This document shows, one piece after another, positions 32,850 to 39,887 of a DNA stretch of 64,000 nt (the first letter of the stretch is position 1; each line of letters starts with the position of its first letter). The notes beneath the pieces are model-generated. The model saw nothing but the letters and a program-made list of their open reading frames with translations. It made no database searches and was not told the DNA's origin. The DNA comes from Prauserella cavernicola (GTDB lineage Bacteria; Actinomycetota; Actinomycetes; Mycobacteriales; Pseudonocardiaceae): assembly GCF_016595675.1 (NCBI RefSeq), contig NZ_JAENJH010000010.1:62001-126000 (forward strand). The letters run 5' to 3'. Made by a program: the position numbers and the translations under genes.

Positions 32850-34517
32850 ATGACCGCTGTGGCCGCGCTCGCGGACGAGTACATGGACCTGCTGTTCGAC
32901 GCCGACCCGCTGTGGCCCGCTCTGCTGGGGATGGAATCGCCGAGGAACGGACTCGAGCAACTCAGCGAGGAGGCCGAGCAGCGGCACCGCGCGTCCTTGC
33001 TCGAGCTCACCGAGCGGGCGAGGGAACTCGACTCCGCCGCGCTGGCGCCACAGGACCGCGTGACGCGCGACGTGCTGATCATCTCGGCCACGGCCGCGAT
33101 CGACCAGATCGACGCGCGACTGACCGAGTTCAGCATCAGCCCGCTGTTCGTGGTGCCCGTGGCAGGCCTGCTGAACCTCCTGCCGATGGTGCCGGTGGGC
33201 GACGCCGTGCAGGCCGCCGCCCAGCTCGACCGGCTCGCCGCGATCCCTGCCTTCCTCGAGCAGGTGGCGCAGCGTCACCGCGACGGCGTGGCCGCTGGCC
33301 GGGTCCCGGTCGCGCGGCTCGTGCGGGGCGCCATCGAGCACCTCGACCGCTACCTGGCCGAACCGGACGCCGACCCGCTGGCGCGCCAGACCGCACCCGA
33401 CGGGGACTTCGCCGAGCGCCGGTCCGCGCTGCTGTCCGAGGTCGTGCACCCGGCGTTCGCGGCCTACCGCGACGTGCTCGAGGCCGAGATCTTGCCGCAC
33501 GGCAGGTCCGACGAGCGGCCCGGTCTGTGTCACCTGCCCGGCGGGGAGTCGACCTACGCCGCCCTCGCGCGCGTGCACACCACCACCGACCGCAGCCCCG
33601 ACGAGCTGCACGCCACCGGGCTGCGGATCATCGAACAGCTCGCCGTGGAGTACTCCAAGATCGGCGGGCGGGCGTTCGGCACCCACAGCGTTCCCGACAT
33701 CTTCGCGCGCCTGCGCACCGATCCCGCGCTGCGCTGGAAGTCCGAGGACGAGCTGCTGGACACGGCGCGCTCGGCGATCGCGCGCGCCGAACAGGCCGCG
33801 CCGGGCTGGTTCGGCAGCATCCCCGAGCAGCCGTGCGCCGTGGAGCCGGTGCCGCCCGCCGACGCGCCCGGCTCCGTGGCGGCCTTCTACCTGCTGCCCT
33901 CCGCGGACGGCTCCCGGCCGGGCACGTACTTCGCCAACACCTACGAGGTGACCGAGCGCCAGCGCTGCACGGCCGAGGTCACCGCGTTCCACGAGGCCGT
34001 ACCCGGCCACCACTTCCAGCTCAGCACCGCGCTCGGGCTCACCGACCTGCCGCTGCTGCGCAGGCTGGGCAACTTCAACGCGTACTCGGAGGGCTGGGGG
34101 CTCTACTCGGAGCGGCTCGCCCACGAGATGGGGCTCTACTCCGACGACCTCGCGCTGCTCGGCATGCTCAGCCTCGACTCGACGCGGGCGGGCAGGCTCG
34201 TGGTCGACACCGGCCTGCACGCGCTGGGCTGGAGCAGGCAGCAGGCGATCGACTTCCTGCTGGCCAACTCGCCGATGACCGAGGTGGAGGTCATCGCCGA
34301 GGTCGACCGCTACATCGTCTACCCGGGCCAGGCGCTGGCGTACATGGTGGGCAGGCTCGAGATCGAGCGCGTGCGGGCCGACGCGGAGCGGGCACTCGGT
34401 GAGCGCTTCGACATCAAGGCCTTCCACGACCTGGTGCTGGGCGTCGGCGCGGTGCCGATGTCGGTGCTGGCCGACGTCGTGGCCGACTGGGTGGCTGCCT
34501 CTGCCTCGGCCGGTTAG
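32850..34517 (+). CDS. DUF885 family zinc-metallopeptidase-like protein
   Basis: 555 aa. The metal motif HEAVPGHH is at 381-388 (H381, E382, H387/H388), followed by FNAYSEGWGLYSERLAHEMG, the second signature of the DUF885 family. The fold is mostly helical and related to M3/M32-type peptidases. No signal peptide, so probably cytoplasmic. Start ATG 32850 has no Shine-Dalgarno but has TATGCT 6 bp upstream. Substrate unknown; the family is common in actinobacteria. Confidence 0.87.
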   Translation: MTAVAALADEYMDLLFDADPLWPALLGMESPRNGLEQLSEEAEQRHRASLLELTERARELDSAALAPQDRVTRDVLIISATAAIDQIDARLTEFSISPLFVVPVAGLLNLLPMVPVGDAVQAAAQLDRLAAIPAFLEQVAQRHRDGVAAGRVPVARLVRGAIEHLDRYLAEPDADPLARQTAPDGDFAERRSALLSEVVHPAFAAYRDVLEAEILPHGRSDERPGLCHLPGGESTYAALARVHTTTDRSPDELHATGLRIIEQLAVEYSKIGGRAFGTHSVPDIFARLRTDPALRWKSEDELLDTARSAIARAEQAAPGWFGSIPEQPCAVEPVPPADAPGSVAAFYLLPSADGSRPGTYFANTYEVTERQRCTAEVTAFHEAVPGHHFQLSTALGLTDLPLLRRLGNFNAYSEGWGLYSERLAHEMGLYSDDLALLGMLSLDSTRAGRLVVDTGLHALGWSRQQAIDFLLANSPMTEVEVIAEVDRYIVYPGQALAYMVGRLEIERVRADAERALGERFDIKAFHDLVLGVGAVPMSVLADVVADWVAASASAG

Positions 34518-35185
34518 CGGGCCACGCCGGTGAGCCTGGCGAACACCACCACGGCGTCGGGTTCGGCGGCGGAGGAGTCGAACTGGCCGGACACGCTGAG
34601 CAGGCGCAGGTCGGGGTGGTCGCTGGGCGCGGTGGCCAGTGCCCGCGCCGCGTCGTGGGCCACGGTCTGCACGCGGTAGACGGTGAAGACCGCGGTGGTG
34701 CCGTCGGCCCTGCCCACGGACACCTCCGCGCCCGGCCGCACGTCGCCGAGCGGGTAGAACGCCCCGTGTTCGTAGGCGAAGTCGGTGTGCCCGGTGAGCA
34801 CGGCGGCGCCGCGTTCGCCGGGGGTGCCGTTCTCAGCCAGCCAGCCCACGGTCGCCGCGGTGCCAGGCACCTCGAGCACCCCGGTGGGGGTGCGGCCCAG
34901 TTCGGCGAGCGCGTCGGTCTCGAGCCCGATCTCGGGCACGTGCAGCGAGCCGGGCACCGACGCCGGCAGGGGATCGTGGGCGCGAGGGACAGGGCCGTCG
35001 AGTACCTCGCCGCGGTCGGTCAGCGTGCCGGGGCCGAGCGGTGTCGCGTGGTCGAGTGCCTCGTCGGCGGGCTGCGAGCGCGCGAGCGTCACGGTGGTCA
35101 GCACCGCCGCGAGCGTGACGACCACGGCGGCCGCCACAGCCCCCAGCCTGCCCGCGTCGTCACGTGTGTTTACGGTCACAGACAC
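34514..35185 (-). CDS. Class F sortase-like protein lacking the catalytic cysteine
   Basis: 223 aa from GTG 35185. One N-terminal membrane helix (~13-34), then a sortase beta-barrel domain: LHVPEIGLETDALAELG, VGWLAENGTPGERGAAVLTGHTD with catalytic-type His133, GDVRPGAEVSV, and LRLLSVSGQFD near the end. In class F sortases the last motif is usually L-x-T-C-G-G-x-F-D. Here the Cys is Ser199 (codon TCC) and the preceding Thr is Val. The Arg usually preceding the final VVV strand is also absent (EPDAVVVFA). It should not perform normal transpeptidation. The end overlaps the DUF885 stop by 4 bp on the other strand. Confidence 0.8.
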   Translation of the reverse strand: MSVTVNTRDDAGRLGAVAAAVVVTLAAVLTTVTLARSQPADEALDHATPLGPGTLTDRGEVLDGPVPRAHDPLPASVPGSLHVPEIGLETDALAELGRTPTGVLEVPGTAATVGWLAENGTPGERGAAVLTGHTDFAYEHGAFYPLGDVRPGAEVSVGRADGTTAVFTVYRVQTVAHDAARALATAPSDHPDLRLLSVSGQFDSSAAEPDAVVVFARLTGVAR

Positions 35186-36646: not shown

Positions 36647-39049
36647 TCACTGCACCTCGCGCGCGTACCAGGGCTGGATGGTGTCGCCCTCGCGCGGCAC
36701 GCCGTCGCCCCGGTGCTGCGGGGCCCGCCCTTCGGGCTGCGCCGGGTGCTCGGTGACGAGCAGCGCGGGCAGCGGCAGCGGGGTGGCCTGCTCGGTGAGC
36801 GTCACCTCGGTGTCGTAATGGGTGATCGTGAGCCCGTCGCCGCTGAGCAGCTGGTAGGTCGCCTTGTCCTGCTCGATCTCCACGCCGAACTGCGAGCCGC
36901 GAAAGCACATCCGGAACGCGATCCGGTCCACAGCGGACGGAATGCGCGGTCGGAACGTGAGCTCGCCGCCGTGGTCGCGCATGCCGCCGAACCCGGAGAC
37001 CACGGCGATCCACGCGCCCGCGAGCGAGGCCATGTGCAGGCCGTTGCGCACGTTGTTGTGCAGGTCGTGCAGATCGGTCAGCGCCGCTTCCGCCAGGTAG
37101 TCGTAGGCCAGGTCCAGGTGCCCGCATTCCGCGGCGAGCACCGCCTGCGTGGCCGCCGACAGCGACGAGTCGCGGACGGTCAGTCCTTCGTAGTAGGTGA
37201 AGTTGCGCTGCTTCTGCTCCGGCGTGAACGCGTCGCCGCGCAGATGCATCGCCAGCACGAGGTCGGCCTGCTTCACCACCTGTTTGCGGTAGAGGTCGAA
37301 GTACGGGAAGTTCAGCAGCAGCGGATAGCTGTCCGCGGGCGTGTCGGCGAAGTTCCACCGCGCGTGCTCGGTGAACCGTTCCGACTGCGGGTGCACGGCC
37401 AGCAGTTCGTCGTAGGGCACCAGCATCGTGCGCGCGGCCTCTCGCCAGCCCGCGATCTCGGTGGTGCTCACCTCGAAACGTTCGGCGATGTCGGGGTGCC
37501 GGTCGCACGAGTCGGCGGCCTCGCGCAGGTTCTTCTGCGCCATCAGGTTGGTGTAGACGTTGTTGTCGGCGACGGCGGAGTACTCGTCGGGTCCGGTGAC
37601 ACCGTCGATGCGGAACCCGCCGTGCGGGTCGTGGTGTCCCAGCGACATCCACAGGCGTGCGGTCTCCAGCAGCAGTTCGGTGCCGTGCTGGCGTTCGAAC
37701 TCGGCGTCGCCGGTCGCGGCGAGGTAGCGCGCGATGGCGTCGGCGATGTCGGCGTTGACGTGGAACGCCGCCGTGCCGGCAGGCCAGTACGCCGAGCACT
37801 CGGCGCCGTTGATGGAGCGCCACGGGAACGACGCGCCGCGTAGCCCCAGCTGGTCAGCCCTGTCCCTCGCCTTGTCCACAGTGGAGTGACGCCAGCGCAG
37901 CGCGTCGCGCGCGGCGTCGGGCAGCGTGTAGGTGAGCACCGGCAGCACGAAGCTCTCGGTGTCCCAGAACGCGTGCCCGTCGTAGCCGGGGCCGGTCAGT
38001 CCCTTGCCGGGGATCGCGCGGCTCTCGCCGCGGGCCCCGGCCTGCAGCACGTGGAACAGCGCGAAGCGGATCGCCTGCTGCAGCTCGGGATCGCCGTCGA
38101 CCTCCACCCCCGCGGTGCTCCAGAACTGGTCGAGGAACTGCCGCTGCTCGGCGAGCAGGCCGTCCCAGCCGGTCTGCAGCGCGCCCGCGAGCGCTGCGTC
38201 GACCTGTGCCCTCAGCGCGGGAATCGAGCGCTGGGCCGACCAGCCGTAGGCGAGGTACTTGGTGACGCGCAGCTTCTGCCCGAGCGGCACGTCGACCGCG
38301 AGGGTGAGCCGCGCCAGGTCCTCCTCGCACGTGATCTCGGTGCGCAGTCCGTCGCCGGTCTCCACCTGGTGGTCCATCGCGGCGGCCATGCGCAGGCCCG
38401 AGCGCTTGGTGCGGTGCACCAGCACGGCGCGGTAGTCCTCGGCCATCACGTACTCGGACTGCAGCGGCGCCTCGAGCGCGGCGGCGACGCGCGGGTCGCC
38501 CGTGTCCGACTCGATCGGCTCGTTGGCCAGCAGGTCCGACTGCGCCACCAGCTGTACCTCGTCGTCCAGCGGCTCCACCTCGTAGCGGATGGCCGCCACC
38601 GCGCGCTGGGTGAACGACACGAGCCGCTCGGTCCGCACGCGCACCCGACGCCCCGTCGGTGACGTCCAGTCCGTCTCCCTGCGCAGGGTGCCCGAGCGGA
38701 AGTCGAGCACCCGGTTGTGCGCCGTGGCGTGGCCGTAGCGCATGTCGAGCGGCTCGTCCTCCACCAGCAGGCGGATGACCTTGCCGTCGGTGACGTTCAC
38801 GACCGTCTGGCCCGCCTCGGGGTAGCCGTAGCCCGCCTCGGCGTAGGGCAGTTCGTGTTCCTCGTAGAACCCGTTGAGGTAGGTGCCCGGCAGTCCGCGC
38901 GGCTCGCCCTCCTCGAGCGTGCCGCGCATGCCGATGTGGCCGTTGGACAGCGCGAAGGTGGACTCCGTTCGCTGCAGCTGGTCGACCGCGAGCCCTCGCC
39001 AGCGCAGTTCCCACGGCGAGCACTCGTAACCACGTGCGGGATCGGTCAC
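36647..39049 (-). CDS. Glycoside hydrolase family 65 phosphorylase (trehalose/maltose/kojibiose type)
   Basis: 800 aa, GTG 39049 with GGAGGAA upstream. An N-terminal beta-sandwich domain (YECSPWELRWRGL...NGHIGMRGTLEEGEP) precedes an alpha/alpha barrel. The general acid is Glu489 in FRIDGVTGPDEYSA, and GHAFWDTESFVLPV is another family signature. Such enzymes split alpha-linked disaccharides with phosphate to glucose plus beta-glucose-1-phosphate. The overlapping beta-phosphoglucomutase gene supports phosphorolysis; the same pair occurs in M. tuberculosis (Rv3400-Rv3401). The exact disaccharide is not determinable. Confidence 0.92.
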   Translation of the reverse strand: MTDPARGYECSPWELRWRGLAVDQLQRTESTFALSNGHIGMRGTLEEGEPRGLPGTYLNGFYEEHELPYAEAGYGYPEAGQTVVNVTDGKVIRLLVEDEPLDMRYGHATAHNRVLDFRSGTLRRETDWTSPTGRRVRVRTERLVSFTQRAVAAIRYEVEPLDDEVQLVAQSDLLANEPIESDTGDPRVAAALEAPLQSEYVMAEDYRAVLVHRTKRSGLRMAAAMDHQVETGDGLRTEITCEEDLARLTLAVDVPLGQKLRVTKYLAYGWSAQRSIPALRAQVDAALAGALQTGWDGLLAEQRQFLDQFWSTAGVEVDGDPELQQAIRFALFHVLQAGARGESRAIPGKGLTGPGYDGHAFWDTESFVLPVLTYTLPDAARDALRWRHSTVDKARDRADQLGLRGASFPWRSINGAECSAYWPAGTAAFHVNADIADAIARYLAATGDAEFERQHGTELLLETARLWMSLGHHDPHGGFRIDGVTGPDEYSAVADNNVYTNLMAQKNLREAADSCDRHPDIAERFEVSTTEIAGWREAARTMLVPYDELLAVHPQSERFTEHARWNFADTPADSYPLLLNFPYFDLYRKQVVKQADLVLAMHLRGDAFTPEQKQRNFTYYEGLTVRDSSLSAATQAVLAAECGHLDLAYDYLAEAALTDLHDLHNNVRNGLHMASLAGAWIAVVSGFGGMRDHGGELTFRPRIPSAVDRIAFRMCFRGSQFGVEIEQDKATYQLLSGDGLTITHYDTEVTLTEQATPLPLPALLVTEHPAQPEGRAPQHRGDGVPREGDTIQPWYAREVQ

Positions 39050-39780
39050 GGCGATTCCTCCAGTAACTCGGCGAGATCGTCCACCACGGTGCTCGCGCCC
39101 CGCTCGTGCAGGGCGCCCGCCTGGTCGGCTCTGTTCACCCCCACCACGTACCCGAACTCGCCCGCCTTGCCCGCCTCGACACCGGCGAGCGCGTCCTCGA
39201 ACACCGCCGCGTGCGCGGCCGCGACGCCGAGTTGTTCGGCGCACGCGAGGAAGGAGTCGGGCGCCGGTTTGCCGCGCAGCCCGCGCTCGGAGATCGTGTT
39301 GCCGTCGACGCGGGCGCGCACGAACCGGTCGAGCCCCGCGGCCGACAGCACGCTCACGGCGTTGGCCGACGACGTGACCACGCCGATCGCGAGCCCGGCC
39401 CGCTCGACGGCCTCCAGGTAGCGCACCGAACCCGCGTACGGTTGCACGCCCTGCTCCTCGAGGATGCGCCCGACGAGATCGTTCTTGCGGGTGCCGACGC
39501 CGTGCACCGTCACGGCGTCCGGGCTGTCGTCCTGGCCGCCCTCGGGTAGTTCGATGTCGCGCGAGGCGAGGAAGGTCCGGACACCGTCGAGCCGGGGCCT
39601 GCCGTCGACGTAGGCCGTGTAGTCCCGCTCTGTGAAAGGTTGGAAATCGCCGCCGTCGCGGCGCCGCAGGAGGTCGTCGAAGGTCTGTTTCCAGGCCTGC
39701 ATGTGCAGGGTCGCGGTGCTGGTCAGCACGCCGTCCAGGTCGAACAGGCACGCGGTGATCGTGCTCGGTAACCCGATCAT
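39046..39780 (-). CDS. HAD-family beta-phosphoglucomutase
   Basis: 244 aa from ATG 39780 (an in-frame GTG at 39789 would lie inside the -10). The nucleophile and acid are D14 and D16 in LFDLDGVLTST. A cap domain follows, then VVTSSANA, RGLRGKPAPDSFL and VFEDALAGVEAGKAG. It converts beta-glucose-1-phosphate to glucose-6-phosphate, the product of the GH65 enzyme whose GTG overlaps this stop. TAGCGT lies 7 bp before the ATG, a leaderless layout. Confidence 0.9.
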   Translation of the reverse strand: MIGLPSTITACLFDLDGVLTSTATLHMQAWKQTFDDLLRRRDGGDFQPFTERDYTAYVDGRPRLDGVRTFLASRDIELPEGGQDDSPDAVTVHGVGTRKNDLVGRILEEQGVQPYAGSVRYLEAVERAGLAIGVVTSSANAVSVLSAAGLDRFVRARVDGNTISERGLRGKPAPDSFLACAEQLGVAAAHAAVFEDALAGVEAGKAGEFGYVVGVNRADQAGALHERGASTVVDDLAELLEESP

Positions 39781-39787
39781 GCCGTTC

Positions 39788-39793
39788 ACGCTA
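39788..39793 (-). promoter_or_regulatory. -10 element of the beta-phosphoglucomutase-GH65 operon
   Basis: TAGCGT on the minus strand, 7 bp before the ATG at 39780; no Shine-Dalgarno is present. Confidence 0.4.
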
Positions 39794-39887
39794 GTAGTGG
39801 TTTTCCGAGGTCGCCACGCCTAACATCTGAGCAGCTGAAAAGGTGATGAACCGAGCACCTCGGAGTCCGCCGATGAGCACGCTCGCG

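Follow-up and report, generated by a model that had tools for sequence, protein, structure and literature searches.

The locus described here raises the question of what a sortase-like protein can be once its catalytic cysteine is gone, and whether such a gene is still kept. The gene lies on the minus strand at positions 34514–35185 of the window, by which we mean the whole 64,000-nucleotide stretch of Prauserella cavernicola DNA analysed here. Coordinates and strand were confirmed, and the open reading frame is real, with a GTG start at 35185, a stop codon at 34514–34516 and a product of 223 amino acids. The product consists of a predicted N-terminal membrane anchor helix (residues 11–34; 35084–35155, minus strand), assigned from a low-confidence AlphaFold2 helix and from hydrophobicity judged by eye, and a sortase β-barrel domain (residues 76–223; 34517–34960, minus strand) delimited by Pfam, the model and structure comparison. 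The sortase family PF04203 in Pfam matches at 54 bits against a cut-off of 26.6, and the nearest NCBIfam class is F (115.4 bits, with 20 for GN, 18 for E and 13 for D), which bears out the preliminary description of a class F-like sortase. The curated cut-off of the class F model NF033748, 166 bits, is not reached by the window protein; six other members lacking the Cys score 111–126, two orthologues that keep the Cys are likewise under the cut-off (L077, 126; L032, 133), and scores of 200 and 189 were obtained for the intact paralogues L004 and L028, respectively.

The AlphaFold2 model of the window protein has a mean pLDDT of 79, with 118 of the 223 residues at 90 or above. Among solved structures, sortase E 5go5 matched the model with a Z-score of 15.4 (rmsd 2.0 over 126 residues); sortases of classes A and C matched it too. 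Part of this agreement comes from the input, since 18 of the 20 rows of the alignment given to AlphaFold2 were intact sortases of viral contigs, the other two being the window protein and L039. The class E sortases of S. avermitilis (5go5), S. coelicolor (5cuw) and T. fusca (9iok) are among the closest solved folds (Z 13.9–15.4), and class A sortases are equally close. Unlike the window protein, the class E sortases are Cys enzymes, and the sequence identity to them is 16–21%. Sequence searches of the PDB returned no sortase either for the window protein (E-values up to 1, with two unrelated weak matches) or for its paralogue L004 (E-values up to 0.01). With the class F sortases, represented by NF033748 and the same-genome paralogues L004, L001 and L002, the window protein shares the fold, the N-terminal anchor and the His motif, and the PGE-G, R-x-DG and LRL motifs are likewise present.

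The difference from class F lies at the active site. The L-I-T-C-G-G-A-F-D stretch of L004 pairs without gaps with L-L-S-V-S-G-Q-F-D in the window protein, so that TCGG becomes S-V-S-G: Ser197 takes the place of the Thr, Val198 (GTG; 34592–34594, minus strand) that of the catalytic Cys, and Ser199 (TCC; 34589–34591, minus strand) that of the first Gly. The paralogue alignment left out L003 (wrong frame), L006 and L009 (the window itself) and L039 (the same gene as L011). The preliminary description had placed Ser199 at the Cys position and Val at the Thr; both assignments were one residue off. Its central point, the loss of the catalytic Cys, stands, as there is none at the site and the whole protein contains no Cys at all. 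In the window protein, the end of strand 7, where sortases carry their nucleophile Cys, is occupied by Val198, and this places the protein outside the sortases as enzymes.

The absence of the Cys is not peculiar to this genome. A family search gave matches in 236 of 297 genomes, and the best family matches (L010–L027) are 44–82% identical to the window protein. The nearest relatives, at 81–82% identity, also lack the Cys, contrary to the expectation that close relatives would all carry it if the loss were a recent mutation or a sequencing error. Altogether, 22 of 30 fetched orthologues of this locus, all from one bacterial family and including the window, are without it; this is a count of fetched genes rather than a census, and many lower-scoring family matches lie outside it. 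The Cys column of the 30 orthologues reads Ala in eight, Cys in eight, Thr in six, Val in three, Gly in three and Ser in two. Such a proportion makes the absence more than chance or error. That a functional Cys exists and was hidden by a sequencing error or misalignment is refuted by the 22 Cys-less orthologues and by the lack of any Cys in the window protein, and its probability is next to nil.

Outside this locus, the Cys is kept in all 29 relatives fetched from other families as the best matches of one profile, and in 18 of 18 viral-contig relatives, partly by construction, since one of the two search patterns contains the Cys. The latter are class F sortase genes (L106–L123) on contigs classed as viral in IMG/VR. 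No relative fitting the Cys-less profile was confirmed among 38 pattern matches in viral contigs. In a class-wide search of 394 genomes, the top score outside the family was 156 bits, compared with 254–310 for the 20 best genes within it, 17 of which had built the profile. In the genome of the window itself, a PF04203 search found seven other sortases, all with the Cys.

The remaining catalytic residues were compared over the same orthologues. The TGHTD motif is kept in the window protein, as first described, and His133 (34787–34789, minus strand) is the equivalent of the catalytic His by alignment. It occurs in 20 of the 22 Cys-less rows, the exceptions being two close relatives with the window's genus code, which carry Tyr (L010) and Phe (L011, the same gene as L039 of Prauserella flavalba, family Pseudonocardiaceae). 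The Arg before the last strand is indeed missing, as had been claimed, but this says little: the column holds Asn in all 11 rows that represent intact class F sortases in the tree set, so that intact paralogues do without the Arg too and its absence is not diagnostic of inactivity. That Asn is found in none of the 22 Cys-less rows. Arg194 lies four residues ahead of the Cys position; it is conserved in 41 of 41 rows and may stand in for the classical Arg. A Ser-based hydrolase, the other role first proposed, is rejected: the nucleophile position holds Val, the Ser next to it (position 199) is present in 9 of the 22 Cys-less orthologues, and L010 and L011 have lost the His. Ser at the nucleophile position itself is restricted to two Cys-less rows, L090 and L099 of genus g15 (ITSDG and TTSSS). 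These are true Cys-to-Ser replacements and come closer to the preliminary description than the window protein does. In two of the eight Cys-keeping orthologues, L097 and L098, also of genus g15, the Cys is kept (TTCGG) and Asn replaces the catalytic His.

We compared 14 of the 17 rows of the Cys-less clade defined below (the near copies L011, L025 and L026 being left out) with 11 intact paralogues. The residues kept are those of the scaffold, including P78, P84, W115, P122-G123, G126, G141, F143, R159, D161, F167, R194 and A216, among others, and His133 is kept in 13 of the 14 clade rows. Positions that hold the same residue in 10 or 11 of the 11 intact paralogues and have lost it in the clade include C198, G199, K177, P180, T181, V184, Y185, G186 and N211, the last being the Asn before the last strand; the window protein lacks K177, P180-T181, V184-G186 and N211. 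From the fold of the family, the K..FPT..VYG stretch may be part of the sorting-signal site. These losses bear on the idea that the protein is a decoy or regulator of the active class F sortases of the genome, binding sorting signals without cleaving them. The shared fold and the seven Cys-bearing sortases in the same genome speak for such a role; the replacement of K177 and the PT..VYG positions, together with the lack of any sortase among the ten neighbouring proteins scanned with Pfam, speaks against it. A decoy becomes less likely once the presumed signal site has lost these residues, and we regard it as distinctly improbable. The earlier suggestion of substrate binding, in the sense in which a sortase binds its substrate, is weakened by the same losses.

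A new pair of conserved residues, Glu139 and Arg140, is situated six and seven residues after His133. In the window protein the pair reads Glu139-His140 (34766–34771, minus strand). Glu139 is present in 20 of the 22 Cys-less rows, in none of the eight Cys-keeping orthologues and in one of the 11 paralogues; Arg140 is also found in 20 of 22, and position 197 is Thr or Ser in 22 of 22. It is conceivable that the barrel is a repurposed enzyme that keeps other chemistry, as a hydrolase or the like, through His133, Glu139, Thr197 and Arg194 (R194 being present in 22 of 22), and the retention of His133 and of Thr or Ser at 197 does leave room for some chemistry. Against this, the His has become Tyr or Phe in L010 and L011 while omega there is still 0.05–0.08, and T197 and R194 show no new role, being just as conserved in intact sortases. 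On the tree, moreover, the gain of Glu139 and the loss of the Cys amount to about one event; with only one independent pair on firm branches, the gain is no proof of a coupling between the two. A repurposed enzyme is, in our judgement, clearly unlikely.

The history of the loss was followed on a tree of 41 rows, comprising the 30 orthologues and 11 intact paralogues, with the His and Cys columns removed. Left out of the set were L029 and L034 (near copies of L028 and L030), L003, L005, L007 and L008 (not close class F), L032 (the L105 gene), L058 (frameshifted) and L059–L085 (repeat fetches of genes already in the set). The orthologues split from the 11 intact paralogues with a support of 98/99, and 17 Cys-less rows form one clade (96/87) over five genus codes. 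Under parsimony, the Cys state has to change twice. A topology that unites all 22 Cys-less rows had a p-AU of 0.07, which is not a firm rejection, and on this value a single loss was set aside; a topology uniting the 20 Glu139 rows was not rejected (p-AU 0.46). L090 and L099, both Cys to Ser, are possible separate losses. One old loss of the Cys plus one or two separate ones fits best, and the loss is not recent.

The surroundings of the gene were examined next to those of its orthologues. In the window, a DUF885 protein gene (PF05960; 32883–34517, plus strand, start approximate) is the convergent neighbour and a Ppx/GppA phosphatase family gene (PF02541; 35436–36407, plus strand) the divergent one. 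Scans for inverted repeats, promoters and terminators around the sortase-like gene found nothing. In 18 of 19 regions (those of the L010–L027 and L058 matches), DUF885 is found on one side at a distance of no more than about 200 bp, the exception being L052 with DUF885 5.6 kb away, and in 17 of the 19, Ppx/GppA lies on the other side. Farther along, a GH65 family gene sits beside a HAD hydrolase gene (36647–39819 in the window, minus strand); near the locus, the HAD gene is present in all 19 regions and GH65 in 17 of them. In L055 and L056 (genus g24), ppx and GH65 are not beside the sortase-like gene and DUF885 and HAD remain, probably through a local deletion. Among twenty further regions, chosen rather than random, 11 held additional orthologues next to ppx and GH65, with DUF885 in seven of these 11 and touching in two only (L096 and L098); in most of the g15 regions DUF885 does not adjoin the gene. 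Five of the 20 hold ppx homologues in other surroundings. The last four (L086–L089) have DUF885 and ppx and no sortase-like gene, with about 165 bp between the two in L086. Since DUF885 and ppx sit side by side there without the sortase-like gene, they look like plain neighbours, and neither is accepted as a partner gene.

Is the gene, then, merely decaying, with no function left and on its way out? The locus offers some grounds for this. Its versions in genus g15 include Cys kept, Cys kept without the His, Cys to Ser, Cys to Gly and gene absent; L086 (genus g24) has no gene; and the L058 orthologue (G077, genus g44; G077:C1:1673558–1674218) looks frameshifted, being split into two frames that overlap by 17 bases, which appears to be a recent break or a sequencing error. 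As the gene is absent at the locus in four surveyed genomes and apparently broken in L058, some lineages do without it. The substitution pattern opposes decay. Using a pairwise codon model (GY94-type with F3x4, in a purpose-written script), we obtained an omega of 0.05–0.19 for the sortase-like gene in eight pairs of the Cys-less clade, with 2dlnL values against omega = 1 of 55–151. Two of these pairs are L010–L011 (dS 0.60, omega 0.08) and L020–L025 (dS 0.50, omega 0.07); dS exceeds 1 in five of the eight, where the values are uncertain. The barrel alone gave 0.05–0.18 in six pairs. For comparison, two intact class F pairs gave 0.03 and 0.07, three pairs of Cys-keeping orthologues 0.05–0.12, and the neighbours ppx, DUF885 and GH65 0.03–0.12 in seven of the pairs, with DUF885 alone available for L020–L025.

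In six of the eight pairs, the sortase-like gene is less conserved than each compared neighbour, and the four most divergent of these six show 57–72% identity against 69–94% for the neighbours. In the pairs of the window with L010 and L011, its conservation is close to that of ppx and exceeds that of DUF885. There is no stop within the L010–L027 matches; the open reading frames of the script ran from stop to stop, so that frames taken from it are unbroken by construction. The sortase-like gene is under purifying selection in several genera and is not free to drift. Given the low omega values and the conserved residues specific to the clade, loss of all function is very unlikely. The dN/dS check that had been proposed thus came out far below 1, and selection for a non-transpeptidase role is supported by a Cys-less state common to relatives, a preserved fold and these values.

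We consider it probable that the protein is a pseudosortase, that is, a sortase barrel retained at the cell surface in a binding or structural role that involves no catalysis. In pseudoenzymes in general, the catalytic residue is gone while the fold and the selection on it are retained; the window protein would be a sortase-fold pseudoenzyme and, with no Cys, is not a sortase in the enzyme sense. Without a Cys, the thioacyl intermediate of a sortase could not form, which makes this step of the reaction impossible. The pseudosortase would act non-catalytically on the outer side of the membrane, where a partner, either an envelope protein or a polymer, may be bound through the preserved barrel. 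The binding surface might include the gained Glu-Arg pair, which is near the former active-site His in the sequence. A further-reaching proposal is that the barrel became a new kind of protein: as the nucleophile was lost, the Glu-Arg pair would have arisen as a new site for ligand binding or catalysis, and the protein would now have a durable function in the envelope across several genera of one actinobacterial family. This is tentative and, in our judgement, unlikely.

Searches of the open-access literature found no paper on a pseudosortase, on a sortase lacking the catalytic cysteine or on a pseudoenzyme sortase, a weak absence as subscription journals are mostly outside this scope. A broader open-access search matched only a Lactococcus pilus paper and another, on sortases and pseudoenzymes, only a staphylococcal enolase paper; no paper was found on class F sortases with Pseudonocardia. 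In one study, an Actinoplanes missouriensis mutant without all four class F genes shows no phenotypic change (PMC13251363). For one sortase, another paper describes activity as strongly reduced in its results, and as lost in its discussion, for both the Cys-to-Ala and the Arg-to-Ala mutant; the His-to-Ala mutant is given as comparable to the wild type (PMC13257024).

Class F sortases are poorly understood in general. The series found at this locus, from Cys kept through His lost, Cys to Ser and Cys lost to gene lost, could make the steps from an enzyme to a pseudoenzyme testable. If the gene is kept under selection without the catalytic machinery, a sortase barrel can serve the cell without transpeptidation.
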